Shown piece by piece: positions 15,941 through 62,483 of a DNA stretch of 64,000 bases. This DNA comes from Phycisphaerales bacterium (GTDB taxonomy: Bacteria > Planctomycetota > Phycisphaerae > Phycisphaerales > UBA1924): positions 51,251 through 115,250 of the forward strand of contig JAGQON010000008.1 in the NCBI GenBank assembly GCA_020427395.1, in the 5' to 3' direction. Positions within the stretch are counted from its first letter, which is position 1, and every line of letters begins with the position of its first letter. A model generated the notes under the pieces. It was not told where the DNA came from. It worked only from the letters and a program-made list of their open reading frames with translations, and did not search any database. The translations under genes and the position numbers were made by a program.

Positions 15941-18900
15941 GTGACCAATAGCCGTTCAATGATGACCCTCTTCGCGTCGGTCACTCTCGCTTCATCAACG
16001 CTGCTGTATGCACAGGCGAGCAGTGATCCATTCCCAAGCCGCGTCTCATATTGGAATGATGCAACGTCCGGGTCATGGTTCAGCCCGGACCGATGGGAAG
16101 AGATGCGCCCACCCATCGGTCGACGCTCAGGGGCCTTACTCGCCCTGAAGACGCCGTACGAAGTCATCGTGCCCATCGACCTGGAACTGGCAGATCTCTA
16201 TCTTCTCAATCCGGATGCAACGATCGGCATCGATGCCCGCACGGACCTGTCGATCTTTGGGCGACTCGTCAATCATGGCACGATCGAGATCAATACCGCC
16301 AATCGCAGCGGGATCACCCGCCTGATGTTCAACAGCGACACCCACATCGGCGGCGATGGTTCGATCATCCTCCGAGCGAAGAACTCCACGACAGAATCAC
16401 AGATCCTCACAGGAGGACATCTCGTGACCATCGGGCATGGACAGACCGTCAGCGGCAACGGCATGCTCAGGGGACGCTATCTCAACCTCGGCCATATCCT
16501 TGTCGCAGAGCCAGGCGGCCCCGGCCTCGACATCCAGCAGAGTGTGTCGCAAGCCCCACAAGGCGTTTTCACGGTGCAGGCAAGCACACTGAGACTCACC
16601 GAAAACGCGTCGATTCAGGGAGGCCAGTTCCATCTCGGAGATCACGGTACGCTCTGGCTCGAAACCGGAGCAACCATCGTCCCGGATCAAACAACAATCG
16701 GGGCCGGTACGACGATCTCGATCAACAACGGCGAGGTGGTTCATCCCTTCCCGGACCTGCCCATCGATCTACTGCTCGTCGAGAGCAACGACGCCATCTG
16801 CCTGCTTGATCGCGACATGACTCTCTCGGGCACAGTCCAGCTCCGCCCCGGCGCGATCCTCAGCCCTGCTGATGATGTTGGCATCTCCGGGCTCGGATCG
16901 ATCCAGCTCATCGGGGATGACATCGCCCCAATCAATACCTCGGGCATTCGAACGATCGGCAAAGGCACGCTCACTATCGCCCCGGGTATCGATGTCTTCG
17001 GGAGCGGCTTCATCGACGGCGGCAACGGCGCGATCATCAATCACAGCGTGATCCGCACCGTCACCAGCGCGGACACCATCGAACTTCGAGGGCGAGTCGG
17101 GGACGGTTCATTCCTCGCCGACTCGGGCACGCTCAGCATCAGCAACAGCGCGGAACTCGTCAACGCATACCTCCAGGCCACAAACGGTGGGTCGATCATC
17201 GTCAAAGGCGGCGAACTCATCAACCCCACAGTGGCACCAGGCACCAACCTGCTGCTTTCCGGCAACACCATCACCCTGACCGGGCGGGTCACGCTCCAGG
17301 GCGACATCATCCTGGACCGGGGCGATCTAAACTTCAACAGCACCCCGCTGCTCAAGGGTACCGGCAGAATCCTGATGAACTCGACCGCCGCGCGCGAGGT
17401 CCGCCTCATCGGGGCGATGGGGATCCCCCCCGGCATCACGGTTGAGGGAGCCGGCGAGATCGATGGCATCGTCGGCAATGACTCGGTGATCACCGCGAAC
17501 AACCCGACCCTCCCCCTCACTCTGGACGGCATCCATGACGGCGGCCTGTATGTCGCCGAAAACGCACTCATGCGCCTGCTCGGGGATCACTACAACGGCG
17601 AGTATCTCGCAGACGGCGGCACCATCCACCTCGTCGCCGCCCGGGTTTACAACTCGCAGCTCCGCCGTGTCAACGGGGGATCGATCATCCTGCTGCCCGG
17701 CTCCCACCTCGGACTCACCAACACCTACGCGGAAGCAGATCTTGAAATCTCGGCCCTGACCGAGTGCACCCTGCAAGGCGAGGTCGAGCTTCACGGCTCA
17801 CACCTCATCAGAGAGAGGGGCTGCCTCCTGCTCGAGGACACCACACTCAGCGGCAGCGGGAACATCGTCATGCAAGGGAATCCCATGAGCACGCAGCAGC
17901 CGTGCATCCTTGCGGATGAAGACATCGGGCACATCAACGAGGGTTTTACGATCAGGGGCTCGGGGATCATCTTCACCACCGAGAACGGCGCAATCTCGAG
18001 TGATTCACCGTTCATCGCTGACGATCCGCTTGAGCCGCTCAAGCTCAGCGGCAACATCGGCCCCGTGATCGAGGTTGTCGCGGACAACGCGGTCCTCCTG
18101 CTCAGTAACGGCCTTCAGCTCAGCGAAACCAGCATCAGATCGATCAACGGGGGCGTCGTCAACCTGTCCGAGGGGACGCTGGAGTTCATCGATGTCACGA
18201 ACTTCGCGACGATCCGAATCGACAACGGAAACTCGAATCTCAGGCTCATCGATCGGTTCGAGAACCACGGCGACATCCATATCGGCGCCACCCAAGTCGG
18301 GGGCGGCGCGTCGGTCCTCGCACCGAATCCGCTCGAGATCATGGGGCAGGGGACCATCCACCTTGAGCCGCAACCCTCCCTGCCGCTCCCCACGCTTACC
18401 GCATCGCAGTCGCTGATCATCGGCAGCGGGCAATCCATTCTCGGGAGCGGACGACTCAGCGGCAACATCGATGTCTCCGGCACGCTCGACCCCGGTGCAT
18501 CGACCCGATATCTCCAGTTCACGAACCTCGAGCTGAAATCAGATGCCCGACTCGTGATCGACATCGACGGATTCGGCCCTGAGAATCACGATACCCTCAG
18601 AGCAACCGGCACCGCCTCGCGGGTGACGCTGGGCGGCTCACTGTTGATCAACTTTGGAAACGGTTCAACACCGCACCTCGCGGATCGCTGGACCGTCGTT
18701 CAGGGCAACCAGATCACGGGCCGATTCAATCAGATCCTCTCGGAGCCGCCGCTCAAGAACGGCTGGGTCTTCGCGCAGGTCATCCACGCCGACGGGCTCG
18801 ACATCGTCATCACCTGCCCGGGCGATCGCAACGGTGATGGCGAGAGGAACTTCTTCGATGTCATCGATTTCATCACCGAGTACGCGAACCTGAGCGGGTC

Positions 18901-18985
18901 CGCAGACATCAACGAGGACGGGATCGTCAACTTCTTCGATGTCGGGGCGTTCATCGAACAGTTCAGCTCCGAGTGTCCCGCGTAA
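15941..18985 (+). CDS. Secreted beta-helix-like protein with C-terminal dockerin-type module
   Basis: A 1014-residue exported protein with a signal peptide (MMTLFASVTLASSTLLYAQA). The body is made of repeated short strands with Asn/Gly turns (for example NHGTIEINTANRSGITRL, GSIILLPGSHLGLT, RSINGGVVNLSEGTLE), consistent with a right-handed beta-helix or autotransporter-like solenoid. Residues about 955-1014 form a paired EF-hand-like module, GDRNGDGERNFFDVIDFI and ADINEDGIVNFFDVGAFI, preceded and followed by Cys. This matches the dockerin-type module found in five other secreted proteins here. Function is unknown; adhesion or polysaccharide binding is only a guess. It is the longest such protein in the window. 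Confidence 0.75.
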   Translation: MTNSRSMMTLFASVTLASSTLLYAQASSDPFPSRVSYWNDATSGSWFSPDRWEEMRPPIGRRSGALLALKTPYEVIVPIDLELADLYLLNPDATIGIDARTDLSIFGRLVNHGTIEINTANRSGITRLMFNSDTHIGGDGSIILRAKNSTTESQILTGGHLVTIGHGQTVSGNGMLRGRYLNLGHILVAEPGGPGLDIQQSVSQAPQGVFTVQASTLRLTENASIQGGQFHLGDHGTLWLETGATIVPDQTTIGAGTTISINNGEVVHPFPDLPIDLLLVESNDAICLLDRDMTLSGTVQLRPGAILSPADDVGISGLGSIQLIGDDIAPINTSGIRTIGKGTLTIAPGIDVFGSGFIDGGNGAIINHSVIRTVTSADTIELRGRVGDGSFLADSGTLSISNSAELVNAYLQATNGGSIIVKGGELINPTVAPGTNLLLSGNTITLTGRVTLQGDIILDRGDLNFNSTPLLKGTGRILMNSTAAREVRLIGAMGIPPGITVEGAGEIDGIVGNDSVITANNPTLPLTLDGIHDGGLYVAENALMRLLGDHYNGEYLADGGTIHLVAARVYNSQLRRVNGGSIILLPGSHLGLTNTYAEADLEISALTECTLQGEVELHGSHLIRERGCLLLEDTTLSGSGNIVMQGNPMSTQQPCILADEDIGHINEGFTIRGSGIIFTTENGAISSDSPFIADDPLEPLKLSGNIGPVIEVVADNAVLLLSNGLQLSETSIRSINGGVVNLSEGTLEFIDVTNFATIRIDNGNSNLRLIDRFENHGDIHIGATQVGGGASVLAPNPLEIMGQGTIHLEPQPSLPLPTLTASQSLIIGSGQSILGSGRLSGNIDVSGTLDPGASTRYLQFTNLELKSDARLVIDIDGFGPENHDTLRATGTASRVTLGGSLLINFGNGSTPHLADRWTVVQGNQITGRFNQILSEPPLKNGWVFAQVIHADGLDIVITCPGDRNGDGERNFFDVIDFITEYANLSGSADINEDGIVNFFDVGAFIEQFSSECPA

Positions 18986-19073
18986 GAACGGACCATCCCA
19001 CAAGACATCACACTCGATGCCGATTCGCGAACCGGTCCGAATCGAACGCAGACCGAGCCATGCTCACTCGCAG

Positions 19074-19111
19074 CAAAAAACCGCACCGCCCGAAACACTC
19101 GGGCGGCGCGG
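19074..19111 (-). terminator. Hairpin-T terminator on the minus strand
   Basis: Read on the minus strand, CCGCCCGA pairs with TCGGGCGG, extended by an outer CCGC/GCGG stem, and is followed by TTTTTT. It would end transcripts from the AhpD-like gene, though it lies about 155 bases past that stop. Confidence 0.6.
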
Positions 19112-19249
19112 CGCAGGAAATGGGGTGATCCTGTGCCCCGGTCAAGCTCGATCATGCAAGATCATCCTCGACCGGGTCGTATTCAAGTGGCCGGGCCCAG
19201 GACCCCAGGCCCGGCCGGCGATCGCCCAGAGAGGGGGTTGGGCGATCGC
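19081..19249. repeat. Cluster of four strong hairpins in an intergenic gap
   Basis: Four adjacent inverted repeats: 19081-19111 (CCGCCCGA/TCGGGCGG); 19137-19176 (CCCGGTC/GACCGGG with an inner GATC/GATC stem); 19189-19216 (GGCCGGGCC/GGCCCGGCC); 19218-19249 (GCGATCGCCC/GGGCGATCGC). All stems are perfect. They fill most of the 280-base gap between two convergent genes. Whether this is a structured RNA, a stacked terminator region or a repetitive extragenic element cannot be decided from one copy. Confidence 0.6.
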
Positions 19250-19265
19250 GTATGTCATTCGCCGA

Positions 19266-19814
19266 TCAGACGGCAACCGATTCACTGAGTTCAACTTCTG
19301 GGAAATCAATGCTGGTTTCCAAGATGTGGTTCATGTAGTTCGTAAACAGGTTGAATGTCGTGATGGTGATCACCTCGAGCACCTCCGACTCGCTCATATG
19401 CTCCCGGGCCGCGTCGAAGTCCTCCGAAGCGATGTGCCCACGGTGCTCGACGATCGCCCGAGCAAAGTCGATCGCCGCCTGTGTCTTGGGATCGCCCGAC
19501 TTGCCGTTTCGGTTCAGCTCTCGCTCTTCTTCGCTCAGCCCCACCATTTTGCCGATGGCATTGTGAGCCGCGAGGCAATAGCCACACTTGGAGAAGTTCG
19601 CGATCGCGATCGCGAGCGATTCACCAAACTTGGGCCCCAGCGAGCCAGACTCGATCGCGCTCTTCTGCTGAACATAGCTATTGAGTGCCGCAGGGGACTT
19701 GCCCATCGTCGCCAGCAGGTTGGGGACCATCCCCAGCTTCGCATGGAGGGCTTCCAAGGTACCCTTGGTGCTCTGGGGGGCCTGATCGATTGTGATTGGT
19801 TCAACGCGTGCCAT
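19266..19814 (-). CDS. Carboxymuconolactone decarboxylase/AhpD-like protein
   Basis: A 182-residue cytoplasmic protein of the CMD/AhpD fold, which covers peroxidase-associated disulfide reductases. The active-site motif is CGYCLAAH (CxxC then His, about residue 76-83), as in AhpD and the uncharacterised peroxidase-related group. The ATG at 19814 is chosen because GGAGA lies 8 bases upstream; longer starts would cover the promoter region. The gene is divergent from the TetR regulator at 19957 and shares its operator region, so it is probably the regulator's target. The redox partner might be the thioredoxin encoded at 20648; that is inference. Confidence 0.85.
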   Translation of the reverse strand: MARVEPITIDQAPQSTKGTLEALHAKLGMVPNLLATMGKSPAALNSYVQQKSAIESGSLGPKFGESLAIAIANFSKCGYCLAAHNAIGKMVGLSEEERELNRNGKSGDPKTQAAIDFARAIVEHRGHIASEDFDAAREHMSESEVLEVITITTFNLFTNYMNHILETSIDFPEVELSESVAV

Positions 19815-19873
19815 AGATTCGTCTCCCATAGGCGTCCCATTATCGAGAATCGCCGTTTTTCGACTTCTGTCCC

Positions 19874-19927
19874 TTGCGGACATGCCTGACAAAGAGTAGA
19901 ATAGACCAACTGGTCTGTTTATTTCAA
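19874..19927. promoter_or_regulatory. Divergent promoters with a shared TetR-type operator
   Basis: The palindrome TAGACC-AACT-GGTCTG sits at 19902-19917 and resembles the NemR-type box TAGACC-N4-GGTCTA. For the plus strand, TTGCGG (19874-19879), 17 bases, TAGAAT (19897-19902) form a sigma-70-type promoter whose start point would fall inside the operator. For the minus strand, TTGAAA (complement of 19922-19927), 18 bases, TATTCT (complement of 19898-19903) form a second promoter with the operator in its spacer. Binding there would block both the regulator gene and the AhpD-like gene. Confidence 0.65.
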
Positions 19928-19956
19928 CCCACTCGAGAAAAATTGGACTCCTTCAT

Positions 19957-20574
19957 ATGGCTTCACCCAAACGAGATCGTCTCCTCAACTGTGCTCGCCA
20001 TCTCTTCGAAACCGAGGGATTCCACACCACCGGCATCGATCGGATCCTCGAAGAAGCCGGCGTCGCCAAGATGACGCTTTACAACAACTTCGGATCCAAG
20101 GACATGCTCATCGTGGCCGTGCTAAATCGCGCAAGTGATGACATGCTGCAAAAACTCGAAGGGACCGTGTCCCATCTGAACGACCCATACGAGCAAATTC
20201 TGGGGATTTTCGATGCCTTAGCCGGCTGGTACAGTTCCGAGGATTTCTGCGGCTGCATGTTTCAGGCCGCCGTGGCCGAGTTCCCAGACCCCGAATCAGA
20301 ACCCGCTATGGCCGCACGCAGACACCTGATGCGACTCACCGAACTCTTCCTGGACATGACCCGACGCGCGGAGCTCAATGATGCCGAGACGCTTGCGAGC
20401 ATGCTCGCCATGATCGCCAGCGGTGCAAACTGCACAGCCAGACAGATTCGTACACAGACCCCAGCCCTTCACGCCCGACAGATCGCCGAAATCCTGCTTG
20501 AGCGTGCCTGCTCTCGCCGCCTTTCGCCCGATAACCCGATCAGGCCGCAGGCGACGAAACTTCAGACACTCTGA
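19957..20574 (+). CDS. TetR-family transcriptional regulator
   Basis: A 205-residue repressor-type protein. The N-terminal TetR DNA-binding domain is clear: RLLNCARHLFETEGFHTTGI, then ILEEAGVAKMTLYNNFGSKD, the usual recognition-helix region (residues about 7-52). The C-terminal ligand-binding domain has several Cys residues (EDFCGCMF, GANCTARQ, RACSRR) and one Cys in the DNA-binding domain, which would suit a thiol-sensing regulator of the NemR kind; that is inference. The TetR-type palindrome in the divergent promoter region and a related half-site downstream before the thioredoxin gene support autoregulation and control of both neighbours. Confidence 0.9.
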   Translation: MASPKRDRLLNCARHLFETEGFHTTGIDRILEEAGVAKMTLYNNFGSKDMLIVAVLNRASDDMLQKLEGTVSHLNDPYEQILGIFDALAGWYSSEDFCGCMFQAAVAEFPDPESEPAMAARRHLMRLTELFLDMTRRAELNDAETLASMLAMIASGANCTARQIRTQTPALHARQIAEILLERACSRRLSPDNPIRPQATKLQTL

Positions 20575-20576
20575 AA

Positions 20577-20592
20577 TAGAACGACCAGTTCA
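20577..20592 (+). promoter_or_regulatory. Degenerate second TetR-type site before thioredoxin
   Basis: TAGAAC-GACC-AGTTCA contains GACCAGTT, which on the other strand is AACTGGTC, the same 8 bases found in the operator at 19908-19915. Only one half is well conserved. It lies just after the tetR stop and about 56 bases before the thioredoxin ATG. Confidence 0.35.
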
Positions 20593-20647
20593 GTTGTTGA
20601 CCTCCAACCAAGGAGCACATCCCCAACTAAACACAAGGAGTCCCCAT

Positions 20648-20968
20648 ATGGCCACCCAAACCGTTCTTGAAATCACCGCCGAAAACTTCGATCAGCTGGT
20701 CAACAGCGGCACCCCCACCCTTGTCGACTTCTGGGCCCCTTGGTGCGGCCCGTGCCGGGTGCTGGGCCCCACGATCGACAAGCTCGCCAATGACTTCGAG
20801 GGACAGGCCCAGATCGGCAAGATCAACATCGATGAGCACCCCCAACTCGCAGCCAAGTTCGGCGTCTCTTCAATCCCGACCGTCATGGTGTTCAAGAACG
20901 GCGAACGCACCGAGCAGTTCGTCGGGCTCCGCCAATACGATGTGTACGCCGATGCGTTGAACAGCTAA
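20648..20968 (+). CDS. trxA: Thioredoxin
   Basis: Cytoplasmic dithiol-disulfide reductase of 106 residues, the standard length. The active site is WAPWCGPCRVLGP (CGPC at about residue 32-35), and the cis-Pro segment SIPTVMVFKNGE is present. An AAGGAG sequence 7 bases before the ATG at 20648 fixes the start. It lies 73 bases after the TetR gene on the same strand and ends in its own terminator. The context suggests service to the AhpD-like protein and regulation by the neighbouring TetR protein, though a general housekeeping role is equally possible. Confidence 0.95.
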   Translation: MATQTVLEITAENFDQLVNSGTPTLVDFWAPWCGPCRVLGPTIDKLANDFEGQAQIGKINIDEHPQLAAKFGVSSIPTVMVFKNGERTEQFVGLRQYDVYADALNS

Positions 20969-20995
20969 TCAGGCACCCAACAAAGCGCGAAAGAT

Positions 20996-21018
20996 GCCCG
21001 CAATCGCGGGCGTTTTTT
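20996..21018 (+). terminator. Terminator after thioredoxin
   Basis: GCCCGC pairs with GCGGGC across a 4-base loop, followed by G and TTTTTT. Confidence 0.8.
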
Positions 21019-21049
21019 CTGCGCTCGCCCGGTACAATCGCTCCCTGCG

Positions 21050-23785: not shown

Positions 23786-23793
23786 GGACTCGT

Positions 23794-24138
23794 ATGGACA
23801 TCGCCATCATCCTGCTCATCTTGGCAGCCATGATCGGGCTCTTCAAGTGGCTCTTTCAGACTATCACCGAGGAGAAGATCGACTGGTGGGACAGCGCGAC
23901 CTTCGTGGTGCTCGCGGGGCTGATCCGCCGCCTGATGCGTTTCGTGGATGCCAAGATCGATGCCTTCCCCGACTTCATGACCACCTGGGGTAGCTTCGCG
24001 ATCTACATCCTGCTGTTCTACTGGCTGCTCCGTGTATGGAAGGGCACATCCAAACGGCAGGCCGGTATGCTTGTCGCGATCTGGATCCCGATCTCGTTTG
24101 TCATCGGCGTGGCGATGGTGATCGTCTTCCTGGACTGA
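23794..24138 (+). CDS. Small membrane protein
   Basis: A 114-residue protein with three predicted membrane helices (IAIILLILAAMIGLFKWLF, FAIYILLFYWLLRVW, MLVAIWIPISFVIGVAMVIVF) and a charged middle part. It has no recognised motif but some resemblance to signal-peptidase-I membrane anchors in overall shape. GAGG before the ATG at 23794 serves as ribosome binding site; it is 8 bases from mutS and probably co-transcribed with it. Convergent with the TPR protein gene at 24140. Confidence 0.65.
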   Translation: MDIAIILLILAAMIGLFKWLFQTITEEKIDWWDSATFVVLAGLIRRLMRFVDAKIDAFPDFMTTWGSFAIYILLFYWLLRVWKGTSKRQAGMLVAIWIPISFVIGVAMVIVFLD

Positions 24139-24139
24139 A

Positions 24140-27950: not shown

Positions 27951-29174
27951 ATGCTCACCAGCATCGCAGCAGTTCTCGTGACCGCCGGGCTCGCAACGCT
28001 CGGCCCCACCCAGTCCACCCCCCCCTCACCCGAAGGCCAGGGCGGGCACGACACTCGATTCCAAGTGATCTCCGATACCGAGATCATCATCGACGGCATC
28101 ACCTACCACTCGTGGGACGAGGTCGCCCAGTCCGGCTTCCACCAGATGGAAGAGACACGATGCAAAGCCATTGCCCTCGATTGGGGCGATGTCGTCCGCG
28201 GTGGCGCCAACGACTGCTCGTTCAGCCGGACCAACATCGAAGCGCAGTACGATCCCAGCGTTCAGAAGTACCGCATCCCGGTCGTCGTGCACATCATTAC
28301 CAACTCCAACGGCACTACGGGCAGTGTCCCCGATTCGCGTGTCTACTCGCAGATCGAGGTCCTCAACGAAGACTTCCTCGCGATCTCAGGCACGAACGGC
28401 GCCCCAGGCACCGATGTCCAGATCGAGTTCTATCTCGCCACCGAGGACCCCAACGGCAACCCCACCACCGGCATCACCCGCTCGGCCAATACCACTTGGT
28501 TTAACGACGGCGGCAGCTACTGGAACTCGCTGGCGTGGGATACCAACCGCTACCTCAACATCTACACCAACTCAGGAGGCGGCGCGCTGGGCTATGTCCC
28601 CAACCTGCCTCAGGGCGGCATCGCCGGCTCGAACTCGGACCGAGTCGTGATTCTTTACTCGACTTTCGGGCGCAACGCCCCGTACAACCCCTACCACCTC
28701 GGTCGCACGACTACCCATGAGGTTGGGCACTACCTCGGGCTTGATCACACCTTCGCTGGCGGCTGCTCCAACGGCTACACCAGCGGTGACCTCATCAACG
28801 ACACCAACCCCGAGAGCAGCCCCACCTTCGGCTGCCCCGGCTCTCGCAACTCGTGCGGGTTGCCCGCCCCGTTCCATAACTACATGGATTACTCCGACGA
28901 CATCTGCATGAACCAGTTCACGCCCGAGCAGGCCAACCGCATGCGGTGTACCCTTGAGCACTACCGCCCGCTGCTCTACAGCGTCGCTGGCCCCTCGGGC
29001 TGCTCCGACGCCGACCTCGCCGAGCCCTTTGGCGAACTCAACTTCTTCGATGTCTCGGCCTACCTCGCTGCGTTCAACTCGCAGGATCCAGCCGCCGACT
29101 TCGACAGCAACGGCAACTACGATTTCTTTGATGTCTCGCTGTTCCTCGGGCTGTTCAATGTCGGCTGCCCGTGA
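27951..29174 (+). CDS. Secreted M43-type metalloprotease with dockerin-type module
   Basis: A zinc endopeptidase of the pappalysin (M43) group, exported by a signal peptide (MLTSIAAVLVTAGLATL). The 407-residue protein has the zinc motif HEVGHYLGLDH at about residue 262 and the Met-turn NYMDYSDDIC at about 315, with the Cys pairs usual in M43B enzymes. The last 60 residues are the paired dockerin-like module (ELNFFDVSAYLAAF and YDFFDVSLFLGLF, ending GCP), though the first calcium loop is degenerate. A terminator follows directly. Substrate is unknown; a role in degrading extracellular protein is inferred. Confidence 0.88.
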   Translation: MLTSIAAVLVTAGLATLGPTQSTPPSPEGQGGHDTRFQVISDTEIIIDGITYHSWDEVAQSGFHQMEETRCKAIALDWGDVVRGGANDCSFSRTNIEAQYDPSVQKYRIPVVVHIITNSNGTTGSVPDSRVYSQIEVLNEDFLAISGTNGAPGTDVQIEFYLATEDPNGNPTTGITRSANTTWFNDGGSYWNSLAWDTNRYLNIYTNSGGGALGYVPNLPQGGIAGSNSDRVVILYSTFGRNAPYNPYHLGRTTTHEVGHYLGLDHTFAGGCSNGYTSGDLINDTNPESSPTFGCPGSRNSCGLPAPFHNYMDYSDDICMNQFTPEQANRMRCTLEHYRPLLYSVAGPSGCSDADLAEPFGELNFFDVSAYLAAFNSQDPAADFDSNGNYDFFDVSLFLGLFNVGCP

Positions 29175-36961: not shown

Positions 36962-37639
36962 ATGAACACCAAATCAATCGCCACAGCCATTTCGCTCGCT
37001 GCGTTGAGCACCGCCACCCTCGCCGACACCACCCAGACTGGGCCCAACTCGTACACCATTGATGAGGGCGTGACCTTCACGATCCTCAGCCAAGCGGCGA
37101 GCAGCTTCCTGCTCAGCTGGAGCGATGACTCGGGCACCTTCACCGACATCGCCGACCCGACTATCACGCTCTCCAGTGGTCAGACCTATATCTTCGACAA
37201 CGATACCTTCAGCCACCCGTTCCGCATGACCACCGATGCCCTCCCGGTCACCGGGACCGACGGCAGCTATGTCCGAGATACCTTTGATATTGCCGTCATA
37301 GATGGCACCTCACTCCAACCCATCGACGAGTTCACGGCCGATCCCGAGCCGGCCGTCGATGTCATCACCTGGACACCCGGCGACGGTGATGCCGGCGAGT
37401 ACTACTACACCTGCCTGGTGCTCGCACACGCAAATATGATCGGCAAGATTATTGTTGAGGCTCCCGCCTCCTGCCCCGCCGACCTGACCGGCGATGGGAT
37501 GCTTAACTTCTTTGATGTCTCCGCCTTCCTTTCCGCCTACAACGCCATGAACCCAGCCGCCGACTTCACCGGCGACGGCATGTTCAACTTCTTCGATGTC
37601 TCGGCCTTCCTCAGCGCCTTCAACGCCGGCTGCCCGTAA
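36962..37639 (+). CDS. Secreted cupredoxin-like protein with dockerin-type module
   Basis: A 225-residue exported protein with a signal peptide (ATAISLAALSTATLA). Residues about 20-165 look like a plastocyanin/azurin fold: an upstream His in DNDTFSHPFRM and the C-terminal YYTCLVLAHANMIGKI with Cys, His and Met as possible type-1 copper ligands. The spacing C-x4-H-x2-M is shorter before Met than in many blue copper proteins. Residues 167-225 are a near-perfect dockerin-type pair, each NFFDVSAFLSA, ending GCP. GGAG precedes the ATG at 36962. Electron transfer or copper binding at the cell surface is inferred. Confidence 0.8.
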   Translation: MNTKSIATAISLAALSTATLADTTQTGPNSYTIDEGVTFTILSQAASSFLLSWSDDSGTFTDIADPTITLSSGQTYIFDNDTFSHPFRMTTDALPVTGTDGSYVRDTFDIAVIDGTSLQPIDEFTADPEPAVDVITWTPGDGDAGEYYYTCLVLAHANMIGKIIVEAPASCPADLTGDGMLNFFDVSAFLSAYNAMNPAADFTGDGMFNFFDVSAFLSAFNAGCP

Positions 37640-42524: not shown

Positions 42525-43724
42525 ATGACTTCTGCAAGATGTTGTGTATACTTAACCTTTGCAATCACAACCACTTACACCACATCGCTACTCAGTGCCA
42601 GCGATATCGTTGTCGACCTCAATGGAGGCTACCTGTTTGGATACGACACGCCTCCGACAGAGCCAATGACATTTAGTTATTCGACTAACTCTGGCGAAAA
42701 CCATCTCATCACCAACGGATACTTCAAGGGTGGTGTTAATGGATGGTGGACCGACTTCACGCAGTACCGTGTGACAGTCGCAGAAAACTCAACACTTGAG
42801 TTTGGAACTGATTTTCCATTGGATTCAAATTTTTTCGCTAACGACCAGTGGCGCTTCAATGTCAACGGCGAGTTAATCGCAGCCAATGGTCGCAGTATAC
42901 GAGTGCAGAGAGGGCCAAACAACGACTACGAAGATATCTTCACAATTAGTTCGTCCGGCGCACTACATGTCGAAAATGGGACATCGATGTGGATCCCTGG
43001 CGGAACAAACAATGGCACAATCAATATCCTACAGGGCTCATCAGTTATTTGCGAGGAAGCTACCCTATACAGCAATGGCGATGGCATTATCAACATTGGC
43101 AGAGATAGTAAATACAGAGGCGCGATCTTCGATCAAACAGTCTATCTAGCCTCCAACGCAGAACTGGAAGGCGAATTCCCTGATGGATGCACGATCTATT
43201 TACCGGAAGACGGACCTGCAGAATTCTCCGTCTACAGTTCTGGAGTTGGCTGGGGTAGAATGATTGATTGCCAAATCATCATCAACTCAGTACCCGATCC
43301 GGCTAATGTCTCACACTTCGGGAATAGTGACGGTTTCATCTTCTGGCTCAATTCTGAGATAATACTTCTAGACGCGAGTGCTAAGAGTATTGGAGAGGTG
43401 AATCAGATACTGAGCGTGAGCAGCTGCTCGAACTGTGATGAAGAAGTAAGCTGGTCTACAAACCAACTCGTGCCTCCTGCACCAACGAACGATCGTCACT
43501 TCATCATGCGTTGGAGCAAGAATGGGCTGTACTGCATCACCACGCCACTCGATTGGTGCGAAGCAGACCTCAACTTTGACGGCGTGCTCGATTTCTTCGA
43601 TGTCTCTGTTTTTATCAATGGCTACCTTAAAGACTCACCACTAATCAACTTGCACAACGATATGGACATCGATTTCTTCGATGTCAGCGCGTTCCTGAAC
43701 GCTTACACGAACGGCTGCAACTGA
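42525..43724 (+). CDS. Secreted AT-rich protein with dockerin-type module
   Basis: A 399-residue exported protein with a signal peptide (VYLTFAITTTYTTSLLSAS). The body contains beta-rich Asn/Gly segments (NGTINILQGSSVICEEATLY, NGDGIINIGRDSKYRGAI) like the large solenoid protein at 15941. The C-terminal 60 residues are the dockerin-like pair (DFFDVSVFINGY, DFFDVSAFLNAY, ending GCN), with the second calcium loop degenerate (LHNDMDID). GC content is much lower than the rest of the window (about 45% by eye) although the C-terminal module keeps the local style, suggesting an acquired N-terminal part or a fast-evolving gene. GAGGGGG precedes the ATG. Function unknown. Confidence 0.72.
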   Translation: MTSARCCVYLTFAITTTYTTSLLSASDIVVDLNGGYLFGYDTPPTEPMTFSYSTNSGENHLITNGYFKGGVNGWWTDFTQYRVTVAENSTLEFGTDFPLDSNFFANDQWRFNVNGELIAANGRSIRVQRGPNNDYEDIFTISSSGALHVENGTSMWIPGGTNNGTINILQGSSVICEEATLYSNGDGIINIGRDSKYRGAIFDQTVYLASNAELEGEFPDGCTIYLPEDGPAEFSVYSSGVGWGRMIDCQIIINSVPDPANVSHFGNSDGFIFWLNSEIILLDASAKSIGEVNQILSVSSCSNCDEEVSWSTNQLVPPAPTNDRHFIMRWSKNGLYCITTPLDWCEADLNFDGVLDFFDVSVFINGYLKDSPLINLHNDMDIDFFDVSAFLNAYTNGCN

Positions 43725-51611: not shown

Positions 51612-51644
51612 GATCATCCATTTTCGCCCCGAATATGGGCGGTT

Positions 51645-53510
<1,866 letters not shown>

Positions 53511-53574
53511 CATGGCACACACTCCAACTTCATGCTACGCACAATACGCACGCCGATCCCTCAACGCGCGCCCC

Positions 53575-55464: not shown

Positions 55465-55705
55465 TCGTCTCTCCGTATGTCGCTGGGCACCACCCACGCC
55501 CGTGCCGCCGTGCACGCGCCGATGGGGATTCTATGGGGCGCAACCTCCCCGCGTCGGCAAGGCCCGCCGAATCCTCAACATGCCACGCCAGGGCTCGCCC
55601 CGCCACCAACCCAAGGCGTCATGCTCGCAATTCACCCCACAACCACCCCTTCGTCGCTTCTTCGGACCTACGCGCGTCCGATCATCCACTACAATCACCC
55701 CCGTG

Positions 55706-55981
55706 ATGATCACCCGCCTCAGAGTTATCTTCCAAGGCCGCGTCCAGGGCGTGGGCTTCCGCATGCGTGCAAGGAGCTGCGCCCAGCGGGTACCAATCAC
55801 CGGCTGGGTCCGAAACGAGCCCGACGGAACCGTCATGCTCGAAGCACAGGGCACCGAGGAAGACCTCAACACCTTCCTTACCGCACTCCGCAAACAAACC
55901 TCAGGGCTCGTGGAACGCGAGGTCCACGCCCATGTCCGCACGGAACTCAATGAAGACGGGTTCGAAATCCGCAGGCACTAG
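55706..55981 (+). CDS. acyP: Acylphosphatase
   Basis: Small cytoplasmic enzyme of 91 residues that hydrolyses acyl phosphates. The catalytic Arg lies in GRVQGVGFRMRA (about residue 20) and the Asn in GWVRNEPDGTV (about 37), the standard acylphosphatase signatures; the C-terminal strand ends FEIRRH. The ATG at 55706 matches the family length of 90-98. The HAD hydrolase gene follows 30 bases downstream and may be co-transcribed. Divergent from dnaG by about 240 bases. Confidence 0.93.
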   Translation: MITRLRVIFQGRVQGVGFRMRARSCAQRVPITGWVRNEPDGTVMLEAQGTEEDLNTFLTALRKQTSGLVEREVHAHVRTELNEDGFEIRRH

Positions 55982-56011
55982 CAGCTACCCAAACAAGGGA
56001 TCACTCCGCCC

Positions 56012-56722
56012 ATGCTCATTCTGTTCGACATCGACATGACCCTGCTCGAAACCGACCACATCGGCATTACTCTGCTCGAGAACGCTGGGCGCGAGCTCTT
56101 CCACGAACGATTCACCGCCGAGGGAATCAACTTCGGCGGCTGCCTCGACCCCGTCATCATCGCCCAGATGCTGATCAACAACACGGTCGACAATACCCCC
56201 GACAACATCACCGCGCTCCGTCGCCACTACCACGCCGGGTTGCAACTCACCGCAAACGAGCGACCGATCGCCCGCGCCCTCCCCGGTGCCCACGAACTCG
56301 TCGCCGCGACGCGCGCCCACGACGCGATCGACGCCATCGGTGTCCTCACCGGCAACTACCCCGAAACCGGCGCCATCAAGCTCACCAGCGCCGGCTTTGA
56401 TCCATCCCACTTCGAGATCAACGCGTGGGGCGATGCCTCGCCGCACGCCCAGCCACTCCGCTCGCACCTGCCTCCCGTCGCCATCCAGAACTTCCACCAA
56501 GCCCGTGCTCGCGCCATCGATCCTGATCAGGTCATCATCATCGGCGACACGATCCACGATGTCACCTGCGCACTCGACAACGGCTGCCGCGCCCTCGCCG
56601 TCGCCACTGGGCATGCGACCCGACAGGAACTCGAAGATGCCGGGGCCCACATTGTGGTCGACGACCTCACCGAGACAAACGCCCTGCTCGACTGGATGCT
56701 CAACCGAGCAGCGGCTCGCTAA
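56012..56722 (+). CDS. HAD-family hydrolase (phosphoglycolate phosphatase-like)
   Basis: A 236-residue phosphatase-type protein. The HAD motifs are I: FDIDMTLLE (Asp nucleophile at about residue 6), II: GVLTGN (about 112), III: Lys at about residue 122, and IV: VIIIGDTIHDVTCA (about 172-185). The helical cap between I and II suggests a subclass I Gph-like enzyme. The substrate is not evident. Its stop overlaps the stop of the convergent FG-GAP gene by four bases. Confidence 0.85.
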   Translation: MLILFDIDMTLLETDHIGITLLENAGRELFHERFTAEGINFGGCLDPVIIAQMLINNTVDNTPDNITALRRHYHAGLQLTANERPIARALPGAHELVAATRAHDAIDAIGVLTGNYPETGAIKLTSAGFDPSHFEINAWGDASPHAQPLRSHLPPVAIQNFHQARARAIDPDQVIIIGDTIHDVTCALDNGCRALAVATGHATRQELEDAGAHIVVDDLTETNALLDWMLNRAAAR

Positions 56723-58053
56723 TCGCAACCCATCAGGTACAGCCGCAGATACAGTGATACATCGAAGAACGAGTACCGCCCATCGCCATCAAGATCCGCG
56801 AGTGGATCACCCGCGTTGTACGCGCCGATGAACGCCGAGACATCTAGAAAATCGAGAGAAAAATCCCGATTGAAATCGGCCTGGCACCCGACCCCGTACA
56901 CCGCCGCCACACCGGAGCCATCCGCACCGAGCGCTCCAACAACAATCTCGCCGCCGCTCAGGTCGATTGAGCTGCCCAGAAACGAGCCCAATCCCGCATC
57001 GCTCTGAACCAGGCGGTCGCGCAGTACACCTGACTGCGCTTCATACACATACGCCGCGCCCGTTCCGAACACCCCATCGCTATGGAACGCGGCCCCGACA
57101 CCCAGCAGCCCGCGATCGAGCCGCACCCAGCCGCCGAACGCGTCAGTCGCCGCACCATCGAACGCCAGCAGCTTGTGCAGCTGCGCACCGGTCTTGGCAT
57201 CGAACACATACACCGAGCCCGAGTTGAGCCCAAGATCATCCGAATCCGCCCCAACCGCGAGCAGCCCACCATCAATCGAGACCGTGCGTCCAAACTGATC
57301 GTCCGCCTGCCCATCGTCCGGGGCAATCTTCATCACCTGCTCGCCGCTGGTGACATCAAACAGATAGACCGAGCCGGAGTTCCCGCCGTGAAGATCATCG
57401 TGGTATGCGCAGGCCGCAAGCATCCCGTTCTCATCGATCGAGATCGCGAACCCAAACCGATCACCCGCCGACGCATCATCAGGAATAATCTTGCGGATCT
57501 GCGCCCCGCTCGTGGCATCAAACACATACACCGAGCCCGAGTCCGCCCCCACCACATCGTCCAGCGGCGAGCCCACACACACGACCCCATCACCGATCGC
57601 CACCGAGCGACCGAAACGATCACCCGCTGTGGCATCCTCGGCCAAGAGTTTGTGCAGCTGCACTCCGCTCAGCGCATCGAAGAGGTACGCCGATCCCGAG
57701 TTCGAACCCGAGTCGTCATTGTCCCGCGCCCCCACCGCGACCAACCCAAACCGGAGATCGAGCGACACGCTGAATACATCGTCGCTGTCCCCATCTTCCG
57801 CGAGCAGCTTGTGCCGCAGTGAACCCGTGATCGCGTCATACAGGTACACCGAGCCTGAGTTCGCGCCGTTGTCCGCGTCGTGCCACGAACCCACCGCGAT
57901 CAACCGGTCATCGATCGCCACAGACCAGCCAAACTGGTCCCCCTCCGAACCATCACCCGGGAAGAGCAAGAAATCCTCCGCGACCACCTGCGCCATCGCC
58001 CCCCAAACGCTCACGCACTGCACCACGCACACCAGAACCGATCTCAGCCGCAT
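56719..58053 (-). CDS. Secreted FG-GAP repeat protein with dockerin-type module
   Basis: A 444-residue exported protein with a signal peptide (LVCVVQCVSVWGAMAQVV). It has about seven repeats of an FG-GAP-like unit, with recurring DQFGWSVAID, IAVGSWHDAD, GSVYLYDA motifs and copies such as DRFGRSVAIGDGVVCVGS, DRFGFAISIDENGMLAAC, DQFGRTVSIDGGLLAVGA; such repeats form beta-propellers often binding calcium. The last 60 residues hold the dockerin-type pair (LDFLDVSAFIGAY, YSFFDVSLYLRLY, ending GCD). The ATG at 58053 places the signal peptide; a longer frame has no signal. Adhesion is a guess from the fold. Confidence 0.85.
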   Translation of the reverse strand: MRLRSVLVCVVQCVSVWGAMAQVVAEDFLLFPGDGSEGDQFGWSVAIDDRLIAVGSWHDADNGANSGSVYLYDAITGSLRHKLLAEDGDSDDVFSVSLDLRFGLVAVGARDNDDSGSNSGSAYLFDALSGVQLHKLLAEDATAGDRFGRSVAIGDGVVCVGSPLDDVVGADSGSVYVFDATSGAQIRKIIPDDASAGDRFGFAISIDENGMLAACAYHDDLHGGNSGSVYLFDVTSGEQVMKIAPDDGQADDQFGRTVSIDGGLLAVGADSDDLGLNSGSVYVFDAKTGAQLHKLLAFDGAATDAFGGWVRLDRGLLGVGAAFHSDGVFGTGAAYVYEAQSGVLRDRLVQSDAGLGSFLGSSIDLSGGEIVVGALGADGSGVAAVYGVGCQADFNRDFSLDFLDVSAFIGAYNAGDPLADLDGDGRYSFFDVSLYLRLYLMGCD

Positions 58054-58181
58054 CGAACGCCTCCCGAACCCCAGTGTACCCCGACTTGGCTCAATCTCCG
58101 AGCACAATCCCGCACCACATCACCCCCAAAACACAGTACACTGATCCCCCAAGAAAACCTCCAACCCCGAGGATCACGCAT

Positions 58182-59522
58182 TTGGACCAGGCTCAACCCA
58201 ATCCCATCGAACAGGCACCCGATCAGCCCAAACGCCCGGCGCCCACAACACAGCGATACTCCTCCATCGACACCCTGCGCGGCTTCGCACTGCTGGGGAT
58301 CCTCGTCCCCAACATCTGGTTCTTCGCATGGCCCATGGTCGCGGGCACCGCACCCGACGAGATCATGAGTCACACGCCCGCGAACCACCTCGCTCACGAC
58401 ATCACCTCCACACTCTTCCTCGGCAAGTTCATGTTCCTCTTCGCCCTGCTCTTCGGCTCGGGCGTCATCATGTACGCCCGCAAGTTCGACAGCAGCTCAC
58501 AGAACGCCTGTGCAAGCTGTGACTATGACATGACGGGCCTGACCGCCGAAGCTCGCTGCCCGGAATGCGACTCCTCGGCGCGAACATCACGCATAACGCC
58601 CTTATCTAAGGGCGCCCTGCTCTGGTACATCCGCTGCGCTGTGCTCCTCATGTTCGGGCTCATCCATGCGTACCTCTTCTGGTACGGCGACATCCTCACC
58701 TTCTACGCCGTCGCCGGGCTCACCCTCCTCTGGTGGGTCCGCCGACTCAACCCCAGACTCCAGCTCTGGGGCGGGCTCGGGCTGTACTTCCTGGGGGCCC
58801 TCCTCATGACCGCGTTCTCAGGGCTGGGCTACTGGGCACTCGAAACCGGGCGTGTTTCGATCGACGAACTCACCGGCAACACCGAACTTGAACTCAAAGG
58901 CTACCTCGGCACATTCGCAGACGCCCTCCAAGCACGATTCTTCACCACACTCCAGTTCCAGTTCATCTTCGGCGTCTTCTTCATGCCCGCCCTCTGGGGC
59001 ATCATGACCATGGGCATGGGACTCACCCGCCTCGGATACCTCACCGGCGAAAAGAAGACCTCCACCTACCTCAAACTCGCGGCCATGCTGATCCCGCTCG
59101 GGCTTGTTACCACACTCCTCGCCTACTACTCAACACACACCATATTCGAACGACTCCCGGGCTTCATGTGGCAGGCACTCGCCCAACCCATCGGCGTCCC
59201 GCTCGCACTCGGCTACGGATCACTCATCATCGCCCTCAGCAAGCTCACCGCCGCGAAGATCATCACCGCACCGCTCGCCGCAGTCGGACGCATGGCACTC
59301 TCCAACTACTTCGCACACACACTCCTGTGCACAACCTTCTTCTACGGCTACGGGCTCGGATACTTCGCGCAAATCGAATATCCACAGCTCTGGCTCGTCG
59401 TCCTCAGCGTCTGGGCGTTCAATATCGTCTTCTCACTGCTCTGGTTACGCGCATTCAGGATGGGTCCGTTCGAATGGGTCTGGCGATGCCTGACTTATCG
59501 ACAACTCGTCCCCATCCGCTGA
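58182..59522 (+). CDS. DUF418-family membrane protein with inserted zinc ribbon
   Basis: A 446-residue multi-pass protein resembling the DUF418/YeiB family: the N-terminal SSIDTLRGFALLGILVPNI (about residue 27-45), the long helix region and C-terminal GRMALSNYFAHTLLCTTFFY and FEWVWRCLTYRQ are typical. Between helices 2 and 3 there is a zinc ribbon, CASCDYDMTGL and CPECDSSA (about residues 107-128), of the kind found elsewhere at protein termini in this window. The start is uncertain: TTG at 58182 with GAGG nine bases upstream is preferred over an upstream ATG at 58074 that begins inside the neighbouring promoter region. Function unknown. Confidence 0.82.
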   Translation: MDQAQPNPIEQAPDQPKRPAPTTQRYSSIDTLRGFALLGILVPNIWFFAWPMVAGTAPDEIMSHTPANHLAHDITSTLFLGKFMFLFALLFGSGVIMYARKFDSSSQNACASCDYDMTGLTAEARCPECDSSARTSRITPLSKGALLWYIRCAVLLMFGLIHAYLFWYGDILTFYAVAGLTLLWWVRRLNPRLQLWGGLGLYFLGALLMTAFSGLGYWALETGRVSIDELTGNTELELKGYLGTFADALQARFFTTLQFQFIFGVFFMPALWGIMTMGMGLTRLGYLTGEKKTSTYLKLAAMLIPLGLVTTLLAYYSTHTIFERLPGFMWQALAQPIGVPLALGYGSLIIALSKLTAAKIITAPLAAVGRMALSNYFAHTLLCTTFFYGYGLGYFAQIEYPQLWLVVLSVWAFNIVFSLLWLRAFRMGPFEWVWRCLTYRQLVPIR

Positions 59523-59548
59523 TTCTCTATAAACTCCCACGCTCGAAA

Positions 59549-59570
59549 CCCGCGAACATGCGGGCGTTTT
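59549..59570 (+). terminator. Weak terminator after the DUF418 gene
   Basis: CCCGC pairs with GCGGG across GAACAT, followed by CGTTTT. Confidence 0.5.
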
Positions 59571-59631
59571 GCTACACTCAAACTCAGAAATCGCAACCAC
59601 CACAACCAGCTTCGGCAAGGAGGCCCAAGCA

Positions 59632-60375
59632 ATGCCCAGCAGCTACCGCGCACTGTGCTCCGATTTCTACATCAACTCCAAACTCAATGTCCGCATGGAG
59701 CTCCCCACCAACCGCGAGCCCGTGCTGGAGCTCTTCGAGCGCACCCGCCGCGCCTACCCGGCCATGAACGCCTTCCGGCGATACAAGGATGAGCTCGCCC
59801 TCGAGTCCGCCCCCAACGCCACCCCCCACCGCTGGCTGGCGATCCGCCAGTCCTCCGTGCGTGCCGGCGTCGTCAACCCCACCAACACCGACGACATGTA
59901 CGCCATCCACCGAGACACCATGGAGACATCGCCCTACTTCCTCTCCATCTCCCCGCTCGACATCGAGTACATCGAGCTGCTCTACGGCTTCGATCTCAAC
60001 GCTTCGGGCAACCACGACGCCATCGCCGCCAACGCCCTGCTCGCCGGCTCGCCAATGGCCGCGCTCATCGACGCGGCCGACATCAACATCCTCGAGTGCC
60101 AGCCCACCCTGGGCATGAAACTCTCCGACGACGACGGGCTCGAAGTCCACTTCGAGGTCAAAACACGCTCCAAGGGCAAAAAGCCCTCCGAGCCCAACCC
60201 CGACCCCATCAGCGTCTACCTCACCCTCCGCCGATACGACCCCGTCACCGAGCTCCAGGCCCTCACCACCCAGCTCGACGACCTCATCCAGCGCGGCCAA
60301 TCACTCGTCGACGAATACGCCCTGCCCAACCTGCTCATGCCCCTCCGCGAAGAAATCGCGTCCAGCTCGTTTTAG
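59632..60375 (+). CDS. Cytoplasmic protein of unknown function
   Basis: A 247-residue protein without signal or membrane segment. It begins SSYRALCSDFYINSKLNVRM and contains LPTNREPVLELFERTRRAYP and SPYFLSISPLDIEYIELLYG; the central part has LDLIDAADI-like helices and the C-terminus is helical (LTTQLDDLIQRGQSLVDEYA). AAGGAGG before the ATG at 59632 is a strong ribosome binding site, so it is well expressed. I know no family with certainty; its conserved look suggests a planctomycete core gene. Confidence 0.7.
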   Translation: MPSSYRALCSDFYINSKLNVRMELPTNREPVLELFERTRRAYPAMNAFRRYKDELALESAPNATPHRWLAIRQSSVRAGVVNPTNTDDMYAIHRDTMETSPYFLSISPLDIEYIELLYGFDLNASGNHDAIAANALLAGSPMAALIDAADINILECQPTLGMKLSDDDGLEVHFEVKTRSKGKKPSEPNPDPISVYLTLRRYDPVTELQALTTQLDDLIQRGQSLVDEYALPNLLMPLREEIASSSF

Positions 60376-60455
60376 CCTCCCCAGATCCTTTCACTTCCCC
60401 CTTTGGCCGAGGCACCACACCGGGTATGCTGGTGTATTGACCGAGAGGGGATCGC

Positions 60456-62483
60456 ATGCGCACCTACATCACGCTACTGATTCTGCTATCCACGGCGGTC
60501 GGCACCAAAGCCGCCGACGGCATTCGTTGCGTGCAACAATCCGTGGTCGCGACGATCGATTTCGGTGACTTTATCAGCTACATCGCGACGCACGACAACC
60601 TCGCCTATGTCCACGAACGCCGAGTGGGCATCCATGCCCTCGATGTATCAGACCCCGCGAATCCGATCCCTCTCGCGATCATGCCTGAGACCGACAATGT
60701 GTACGCGCTCGCCGCGACCAATGGCCTCCTAATCGTCGCAAGAAACTCCGTGGGGATCCTGATCTACGACACCTCGGACCCAACAAACCCTACCCTGATC
60801 TCCACCATCGAGCACACTGGGATTCTCTCAGATGTGATCATCGACGCCGACCGACTCTACTACCTCCAGTCGGGCACACTCCGCATCGCCGATCTCTCAG
60901 TCCCAAGCAACCCAATCGAGATCGGCACCTACCACATGGGCGTTGTGACATACGGCATGCGCATCGCCAAGGGGCACGCCTTCATTGCTGGCTCGCAAGC
61001 CGGACTCTACATCATCGATATCACAGACCCGAGCAAACCCGAACTCCGCCATCGTCAGGACATCCCCGGCTTCGCGCAGGATGTCTCCATCAACGGCTCA
61101 TATGTGTATGTCATCTCTGACAACGGGCTTGCACCCAACAACGGGCACATCCGCACCTACGACATCTCCCAACCAGATGCGCCGCTCCTGATCGATGAGC
61201 TTCTTGTACCCGGCCGCCCTCTCCGTATGGAGTATCACGAGAACAATCTGTACATCGCGAACGGCCACTCCGTGCAGGTGCTCGATGTCTCTTCAGCAAG
61301 CAGCCCGAAACCGCTGGGCATGCTGAGCAACCTCAGCAATACCGGATACGCGGACATCGCGTTTACCAACAACCACCTGCTCGCCCCCGCAGGTTACGCG
61401 GGGCTCGAGATCATCGATCCGCACGCCTATGCCGACCCAGTCCAAAGCAAAACCACCACGCCCCCATCACCGCAACGAGTCTCGCTCAAGGACAATACGC
61501 TGTATGTTGCCAACGCCGAGAGTGGGCTCACAATCTACGACATTCAGGACAAAGCCAACCCAACGCTCCTGAGCACGCTCAACACCCCGGGCACCGCATT
61601 CGATGTCGCCATCCAGCAGAGTACCGCGCTCGTCGCCGACGCTGACTCTGGCCTGCTCCTGCTCGATGTCGCCGATCCGTCCAACCCGCAACCCATCACC
61701 ACCTACGCAACGCAGGGCGCTGCCCGCGCCATCACCACCTACTTCGGACTCGCCTACATCGCGACAGACCTCGGGCTCGAGATCGTGAACTTCACCAACC
61801 CCCAAAGCCCATTCCAAGTTTCCTTCCTCAGCCTTCCCAAAGCCCACCACCTCGCGCTCGGCCCGGGCGTTGTGTATGTCGCCTGCGATGACCTCGGACT
61901 CCACATCGTCAATACCCTCAACCCCGCGACGCCCATGCCCATCGGGTACTACAACGAGAACAACTACAACGCCCGAAACATCGCTGTGGACGCCAACCGC
62001 ATCTTCGTCTCCAACTACCACAACGACAACAACGGGTGGCTCGAAGTCTTCGATGTCACCAACCCCGCCAACCCCACCGTCACCGATGTCGTCGGCCACG
62101 GCGAAGATGGCGCGGACTTCCACGACGGGCTGCTCTACACCATTCAACGCAACGAGCTGTCCATCCTCGACCCCAACACCCCCCACGACGCCACACCCAT
62201 CGCCTCATTCCCGCTCACCCACCGCGCCGGCTTTGTGCATATCGAAGACGAAACCGCGTACATCACCTCACCCAACGCCGACACGCTCACCATCATCAGC
62301 ATCGCAGACTGTGCCTGCAATGCCGATTTCAACGACGACGGGCAGGTCAACTCCAACGACATCACCGCGTTCCTCGCGGCCTATATGTCCCAATCCCCCG
62401 CGACAGACCTAAACGGCGACTCACGACTCAACTTCTTCGACATCAGTGCATTCGTGGAGTCCTACCTCTCGGGCTGCCCATAA
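60456..62483 (+). CDS. Secreted LVIVD-repeat protein with dockerin-type module
   Basis: A 675-residue exported protein with a signal peptide (YITLLILLSTAVGTKA). The body has about ten repeats like VRNSVGILIYDTSDPTNPTL, AGLYIIDITDPSKPELRH, GLTIYDIQDKANPTLLS, GLLLLDVADPSNPQPI, the LVIVD type that forms beta-propellers. The final 60 residues are a dockerin-like pair, the first with clear calcium loop DFNDDGQVNSND and the second DLNGDSRLNFFDISAF, ending GCP. Start at 60456 has GAGAGGGG upstream. A surface binding or structural role is inferred. Confidence 0.85.
   Translation: MRTYITLLILLSTAVGTKAADGIRCVQQSVVATIDFGDFISYIATHDNLAYVHERRVGIHALDVSDPANPIPLAIMPETDNVYALAATNGLLIVARNSVGILIYDTSDPTNPTLISTIEHTGILSDVIIDADRLYYLQSGTLRIADLSVPSNPIEIGTYHMGVVTYGMRIAKGHAFIAGSQAGLYIIDITDPSKPELRHRQDIPGFAQDVSINGSYVYVISDNGLAPNNGHIRTYDISQPDAPLLIDELLVPGRPLRMEYHENNLYIANGHSVQVLDVSSASSPKPLGMLSNLSNTGYADIAFTNNHLLAPAGYAGLEIIDPHAYADPVQSKTTTPPSPQRVSLKDNTLYVANAESGLTIYDIQDKANPTLLSTLNTPGTAFDVAIQQSTALVADADSGLLLLDVADPSNPQPITTYATQGAARAITTYFGLAYIATDLGLEIVNFTNPQSPFQVSFLSLPKAHHLALGPGVVYVACDDLGLHIVNTLNPATPMPIGYYNENNYNARNIAVDANRIFVSNYHNDNNGWLEVFDVTNPANPTVTDVVGHGEDGADFHDGLLYTIQRNELSILDPNTPHDATPIASFPLTHRAGFVHIEDETAYITSPNADTLTIISIADCACNADFNDDGQVNSNDITAFLAAYMSQSPATDLNGDSRLNFFDISAFVESYLSGCP

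Follow-up and report, generated by a model that had tools for sequence, protein, structure and literature searches.

A stretch of 64,000 nucleotides from the draft genome of a Phycisphaerales bacterium (GenBank assembly GCA_020427395.1, contig JAGQON010000008.1, positions 51,251 to 115,250 of the forward strand; this whole stretch is the window) encodes six proteins that close with one shared module, the GC-type dockerin described by NCBIfam model NF041540.1 (dockerin_GC). In our judgment the balance tips narrowly toward reading this module as a C-terminal dockerin address tag, by which about 150 mostly predicted-exported proteins of the host genome (designated G000) would be docked to a single partner, specific to this genome and not recognizable as a cohesin. 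A single partner is likely because the module is alike within a genome and different in most other lineages. The module family is already annotated; the novelty lies in evidence pointing to a tag that does without cohesin, is likely clasped by a disulfide and is selected to fit one genome-specific partner.

All six open reading frames (ORFs) for which an earlier note had claimed a common C-terminal module are present, five on the forward strand and one (56719-58053) on the reverse strand, and NF041540 covers the module in each product (hmmscan). The family name given in that note proved correct. Relative to the curated cut-off of 29 bits, five of the six window proteins passed in hmmscan, that of 42525-43724 reaching 27.1 bits, and all six loci passed in the genome-wide search, from which the following scores are given. 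The 1014-residue product of the first carrier gene (15941..18985, +) has a signal-peptide-like start, no Pfam match at E ≤ 1e-3, and a C-terminal module at 18815..18976 (+, 35.5 bits) with the closing motif EC. The second (27951..29174, +) is an M43 metalloprotease (Peptidase_M43, PF05572, E 1e-19) with its module at 29007..29168 (+, 37.4 bits). The third (36962..37639, +) is a rusticyanin-like cupredoxin (Foldseek E 3e-8); its module at 37472..37633 (+, 58.3 bits) was used for structure prediction, and its opening and closing Cys codons lie at 37472-37474 and 37631-37633 (+). The fourth (42525..43724, +) has a module at 43557..43718 (+, 30.6 bits) behind an N-terminal part without a Pfam match at E ≤ 1e-3. 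The fifth (56719..58053, -) holds seven FG-GAP_2 stretches (E 1e-77) and a module at 56725..56886 (-, 40.4 bits), and the sixth (60456..62483, +) holds LVIVD repeats (E 2e-35) and a module at 62316..62477 (+, 43.9 bits). The sixth product also matches NCBIfam 'choice-of-anchor B' (TIGR04312) weakly, at 51.4 bits against a cut-off of 100. Of the N-terminal domains named in the earlier note, the M43, FG-GAP_2 and LVIVD assignments were thus borne out by Pfam and the cupredoxin by structure. Pfam Dockerin_1 (PF00404, gathering cut-off 22.9 bits) matched one of the six window proteins at E ≤ 1, with 18.8 bits, and 4 of 73 carriers at E ≤ 1e-3.

For the 117 modules of G000 matched over exactly 54 residues, the most common residues read CPADLNGDG-x-LNFFDVSAFL-x-AYN...P-x-ADFNGDG-x-FNFFDVSAFL-x-AYNAGC, with Gly-53 in 115 of the 117 and Cys-54 in all of them. 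The halves are tandem, near-symmetric and spaced 27 residues apart, each consisting of an EF-type loop of 12 residues (D1, N/T3, D5, N9, D12) plus a helix. The predicted structure of the cupredoxin module has two loop-helix repeats and matches solved dockerins in fold, so a dockerin fold is predicted for the module, which probably binds calcium as two ions. The residue pattern proposed in the earlier note is present in all six window modules in a looser form than was stated: five close with GC and one, that of 15941-18985, with EC ('SSECPA'), and departures occur in several of the twelve half-repeats, 60456-62483 having 'NSNDITAFL', for example, and 27951-29174 a changed first loop, 'DLAEPFGELNFFD'. 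Among metagenomic proteins, P0001 (143 aa) has three loop-helix repeats instead of two.

Within G000 (3.45 Mb in 203 contigs, 91.8% complete), 149 of the best 150 among 174 first-look candidates scored over the NF041540 cut-off, and none of 14 control genomes gave any match; the recurrence of the module is therefore above chance. The scored matches are spread over 33 contigs, with 22 on contig C121, and two additional unscored copies lie on contig C66. In 147 of the 150, the module lies within 10 residues of the protein C-terminus; two of the remaining three are internal, both on contig C203 (one of them truncated by the edge of the sequence stretch analyzed), and one lies 30 residues from the end. 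A hydrophobic export-like start was found in 137 of 147 carriers, compared with 14 of 36 other window ORFs assessed with the same crude heuristic, and export of the carriers is predicted on this basis. The claim of a widespread C-terminal tag on secreted proteins thus extends from the window to the genome, with secretion as a prediction. The two internal modules (C203:49208 and C203:50704, locus L040) adjoin each other and have 'DTDGD'/'DSDND'-type repeats downstream; a metalloprotease-like zinc motif, judged by eye, also lies downstream of the former.

The cargo is diverse. Pfam families in 145 carriers (50 of 121 families are listed) include FG-GAP and LVIVD propellers; S8, M12, M14, M43 and M64 peptidases; di-haem and animal-type haem peroxidases; phosphoesterases; endonuclease I; GSDH; CotH; and LTD and P-domain proteins (two carriers each). 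Plant-wall families among those listed amount to one Glyco_hydro_16 and one CBM_6.

Among 120 genomes of the host class, 47 have an NF041540 match at E ≤ 1e-3 and 25 pass the cut-off. The genomes loaded with the module comprise, besides G000, all eight other sampled members of the host family (46-223 first-look candidates each), two genomes of family f4 of the host order, and G102 from another family; three relatives have 220-223 first-look candidates. Eight listed genomes of families f2, f3 and f5 of the same order gave no match, and many other families of the class gave one to eleven weaker matches. In a sample of 244 genomes of the phylum, for which at most the best 23 candidates per genome were scored, 11 genomes match at E ≤ 1e-6, all 11 in the host class. 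Single copies scattered through unrelated phyla, which the earlier note took as grounds for abandoning the idea of a common tag, were not seen in the range searched, which was the phylum sample and the 14 control genomes from elsewhere. A protein search among length-similar carriers found that 1349 of 1389 candidates were relatives at E ≤ 1e-3, and two of 120 listed relatives are named 'GC-type dockerin domain-anchored protein' (Phycisphaerales bacterium). The model name says 'anchored'; no partner is named in the material examined.

Related genera mostly score lower on NF041540 (best E 4.8e-10 to 2.1e-6 in G080, G092, G102, G086, G098 and G109), with G115 as an exception (7.6e-16). To compare lineages we defined a recognition core, loop positions 9-12 plus the next eight residues in both repeats, and used 110 of 111 modules from 11 related genomes; the internal module at G086 C7:63010, which has neither Cys, was excluded. 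Modules of relatives were chosen largely by high NF041540 score, a bias that should make lineage dialects harder to detect. The core of G000 reads NFFDVSAFLxAY, that of four genomes of genus g2 TIFDFLAFQNxF, that of G115 DNGDFxAFFAAF, that of G086 NFADLNxVLSxF (similarly DFADLSxVLxNF in G109), that of G080 and G092 xAADLAxLLxAW, that of G098 xGADLGLLLGAW and that of G102 DLSDLAxLLAxF. The ADL..LL.AW type common to G080, G092 and G098 breaks the rule of one dialect per genus. Cores from one genome are on average 0.54-0.90 identical, those from different genera 0.10-0.60, and the nearest neighbour of a module belongs to the same genus in 90% of cases (chance 13%, seven genera). In G115 the EF loops are lengthened (type DIANTDGDPTPDGVIDNGD); both Cys are present in 16 of 17 modules, which are mostly C-terminal (loci L111, L118 and others).

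The dialect follows the genome and not the gene: homologous carriers gave 143 usable pairs, and in all 143 the two modules resemble one another less than each resembles, on average, the modules of its own genome. Pairs were obtained by tblastn (E ≤ 1e-6) of the N-terminal parts of G000 carriers against loci of relatives, with frames followed to their end; of 156 hits, 9 were dropped as the frame leaves the locus and 4 had no parsed module (two with the G115 dialect, two representing the G103 frame). The 143 pairs represent 42 G000 genes and 32 distinct relative modules, with overlapping loci of one gene counted repeatedly. Homologues of the window cupredoxin in G030 and G003 (47-50% identical), for example, carry IFDFLAFQN, as do LVIVD homologues of 60456-62483 in G003. 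Information on lineage is highest at position 10 (1.74 bits), followed by positions 14, 11, 21, 13, 16 and 17, and is zero at calcium ligands 1, 5 and 12. Recognition residues of cellulosomal dockerins are given as positions 10, 11, 17, 18 and 22 in the part of PMC3413522 available; the first four are among the top nine of 23 positions for lineage information, and position 22 falls outside. In the literature searched, which did not include subscription papers, we came across neither the dialects nor the Cys pair, nor any use of the term 'GC-type dockerin'.

The earlier note had suggested a dedicated partner outside the window and proposed looking for a single co-occurring cohesin-like or sortase-like gene. 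The dialects make a dedicated partner likely, although the partner itself was not found, and neither proposed gene tracks the tag in the genomes searched. For cohesins, PF00963 had no match in G000 at E ≤ 10, and an order-level profile, built from three cohesins (two from G062, one from G092), had none there at E ≤ 0.01; this genome is 91.8% complete, and very divergent cohesins could escape such searches. The same profile at E ≤ 0.01 found cohesins in 2 of 20 genomes overall and in 1 of 12 module-loaded genomes (G092), leaving 11 of the 12 without a detected cohesin, and cohesin was rejected as the partner. G102 matched PF00963 at E 0.017 and the order-level profile not at all at E ≤ 0.01, and G062 has two cohesins yet no GC dockerin match. 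No cohesin-bearing scaffoldin of the kind that defines a cellulosome was detected in G000 with either profile. Sortase (PF04203) was absent from all 20 genomes at E ≤ 1e-3, while three control genomes gave matches. Exosortase was present in all 20, module-bearing or not, and is thus not specific enough to be the reader of the tag. The dockerin clusters of contigs C121, C132, C99 and C66 hold 23 ORFs without a scored match; among the 14 of these longer than 230 aa that were inspected by eye, none is an obvious scaffold and two turned out to carry unscored modules. The cohesin of G092 (locus L108), the only one found in nine sampled host-family genomes, is flanked on both sides by dockerin-type repeats in a protein that appears matrixin-like by eye. 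Two of the clusters (C121:46936-48003 and C132:13426-15003; L036 and L037) each contain one module-free, repeat-rich protein, by eye parallel-beta-helix-like, with the C-termini NPNANYTY and DPNANFSY, respectively.

Under the address-tag reading, the module would fold around two bound calcium ions, a disulfide would probably join its ends, and cargo would be docked onto a single genome-specific receptor not recognizable as a cohesin. This receptor is probably at the outer membrane or cell surface, where cargo may then be retained. Like cellulosomal type I dockerins, the module could bind in either of two orientations thanks to its near-identical repeats, and the tag would do the job of exosortase/PEP-CTERM tags in sister families. 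Against this stands the failure of the searches made to find the partner, and our confidence is therefore moderate. A bolder proposal, that in one planctomycete family a disulfide-clasped dockerin now serves, without cohesins, as the main C-terminal address tag of exported proteins, its face recoded in each lineage simultaneously in dozens to hundreds of genes and co-evolving with a novel receptor or with other dockerins, we put forward tentatively, at somewhat below an even chance.

The type IX secretion system (T9SS) recognizes its substrates by C-terminal domains, and the dialect might likewise be read as a substrate signal by an outer-membrane secretion system and not by a surface anchor. 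A single C-terminal module on unrelated cargo suits any single reader, a translocon included, and genome-tracking dialects would fit such a reader equally. Nothing speaks specifically for this possibility, secretion systems (T9SS Por genes included) having been outside the searches made, and the same fold serves as a docking module in cellulosomes; we regard it as unlikely.

The modules might instead bind each other, forming a homotypic network without a separate receptor in which each dialect fits itself. The scarcity of cohesins in module-loaded genomes would agree with this, as would the sharing of a dialect by both repeats (core identity 0.72 between repeats of the same module, compared with 0.31 to those of other genera) and the Phe-Phe pair that each repeat has at positions 10-11 in G000. 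We know of no general mechanism of homotypic dockerin binding, however, which counts against such a network. In a passage of the review PMC12484212, moreover, a dockerin-dockerin interface is reported only between two dockerins in tandem, and we consider the network improbable.

It is comparably doubtful that the module is a passive stabilizing cap, kept uniform by copying and gene conversion, with the dialects as homogenized drift and no partner. Codon usage bears on this, in tests that cover G000 only. Synonymous codons of the module copies agree at 0.57, compared with 0.52 expected from context-matched usage and 0.46 without the context match. Recent duplication would give agreeing synonymous codons, and the copies are thus likely old. 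The conserved Ser14 is encoded by two unconnected codon blocks (110 TCN, 107 AGY). Because the block is common to both repeats of one gene in 78 of 104 cases, we infer some copying. This within-gene correlation, the slight synonymous excess and the clustering of modules (62 of 149 neighbouring matches lie within 3.5 kb) are what a passive cap would lead one to expect. Against it, synonymous sites are near-saturated while residues 10, 11 and 14 are nearly fixed, lineage information peaks at position 10 and vanishes at calcium ligands, and homologous genes carry the dialect of their own genome. Taken together, the codon evidence suggests likely ancient copies whose similarity is preserved mainly by selection at the protein level.

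The two Cys residues that open and close the module occur or are missing as a pair in 247 of 258 parsed modules from 12 genomes (both 233, neither 14, opening only 6, closing only 5; Fisher p 9e-15). Correction of parse errors by eye gave both 238, neither 14, opening only 6 and closing only 2 (n = 260). The association also appears inside single genomes (p 0.001 in G092, 0.026 in G080 and 0.002 in G000), and the sampled modules of seven of the 12 genomes show no Cys loss. Note that the modules are related by descent, so that these p values are indicative. This co-occurrence points to a disulfide that closes the fold and not to a sortase or lipid site, and the simplest reading is that the pair would be a disulfide version of the clasp, a Tyr-Pro stacking, that holds the ends of cellulosomal dockerins (PMC4728124, available text). 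Covalent anchoring by sortase-like cleavage or lipid linkage of the closing Cys, as the earlier note envisaged, would suit the Pro and stop codon that directly follow this residue in 122 of the 145 carriers whose last 12 residues include a Cys, but it can hardly be right given the Cys pairing, the modules that lack both Cys and still close proteins, the lack of space for a membrane helix after a C-terminal module, and the failure to find a sortase in any of 20 genomes. In two modules (G080 C19:59205 and L134), the closing Cys is lost and loop 1 contains an additional Cys with which the opening Cys might pair instead.

PEP-CTERM signals are linear motifs with a membrane helix. The system in G000 resembles them in attaching one short C-terminal tag many times per genome, from dozens to more than a hundred, and differs in that its tag is a folded module: the six window proteins and 147 of the 150 carriers end in this module and not in a PEP-CTERM motif. 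PEP-CTERM matches are mostly fewer where dockerins abound, with 1-24 in the 11 module-loaded genomes of families f1 and f4 and 50 in G102, compared with 135, 80, 65, 63, 94, 48, 11 and 0 in eight unloaded genomes, in two of which the best 150 candidates were scored (Mann-Whitney p 0.025). The correlation with dockerin numbers, which mix counts at E ≤ 0.01 with first-look candidates for four genomes, was -0.33 (Spearman, p 0.16). The two tags therefore seem to stand in for each other partly, without being strictly exclusive. Homologues of the window cupredoxin and LVIVD protein were also sought in 14 genomes, eight of them module-free, and no swap of tags was seen: the cupredoxin matched only in G003, and the LVIVD protein in G003, G102 and, of the module-free genomes, only G103, where the frame ends, by eye, with neither a module nor a PEP-CTERM-like tail. 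'Choice-of-anchor' together with 'PEP-CTERM' was not found in the literature searched.

The module is like cellulosomal type I and II dockerins (2y3n, 1ohz, 2vn5) in its tandem EF-type loops and helices, its fold and its near-symmetric repeats, as well as in lineage-specific residues 10, 11, 17 and 18 and clasped ends (PMC4728124). It differs in that no cohesin was found in G000, few plant-wall enzymes are among the listed cargo families, and the clasp is a predicted Cys pair. The 'Planctosome' of freshwater Nemodlikiaceae is also planctomycete and, in the text available (PMC6461901), has dockerins on peptidases together with LTD and P-domain proteins. That cohesin/dockerin model needs cohesin domains on anchor and adaptor; in G000 no cohesin was detected, and LTD and P-domain proteins carry the dockerin instead. 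In copy number, G000 (at least 149 over the cut-off) and its three richest relatives are comparable to Ruminococcus flavefaciens FD-1, for which the available part of PMC2930009 gives 222 dockerins. The dockerins of R. flavefaciens fall into several groups and are accompanied by cohesin scaffoldins, whereas in G000 one dialect predominates and no cohesin was found.

If the address-tag reading is true, a large share of a bacterium's exported proteins can be sorted by a folded calcium module in place of peptide signals, and dockerins need no cohesins. The receptor should then occur where the tag abounds and vary where the dialect varies, which makes the search for it testable. Orthogonal natural dialects would be useful as pairs for building protein assemblies.

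Three further features were observed. At 1158-3299 of the window, a protein with a flagellar P-ring (FlgI) domain also has a HEAT_2 match behind it, weak at 25.3 bits against a cut-off of 27.7; the pairing is unusual. At loop position 12 of the modules, GAT makes up 221 of 234 Asp codons; a constraint at the DNA level on this Asp was considered and set aside, the bias being explained by loss of GAC before GT across carrier genes (10 of 440 Asp codons). The tetranucleotide ACGT is nearly absent from the whole window (1-64000), with 8 occurrences compared with 180 expected from trinucleotides, which suggests that a restriction or methylation site is being avoided.

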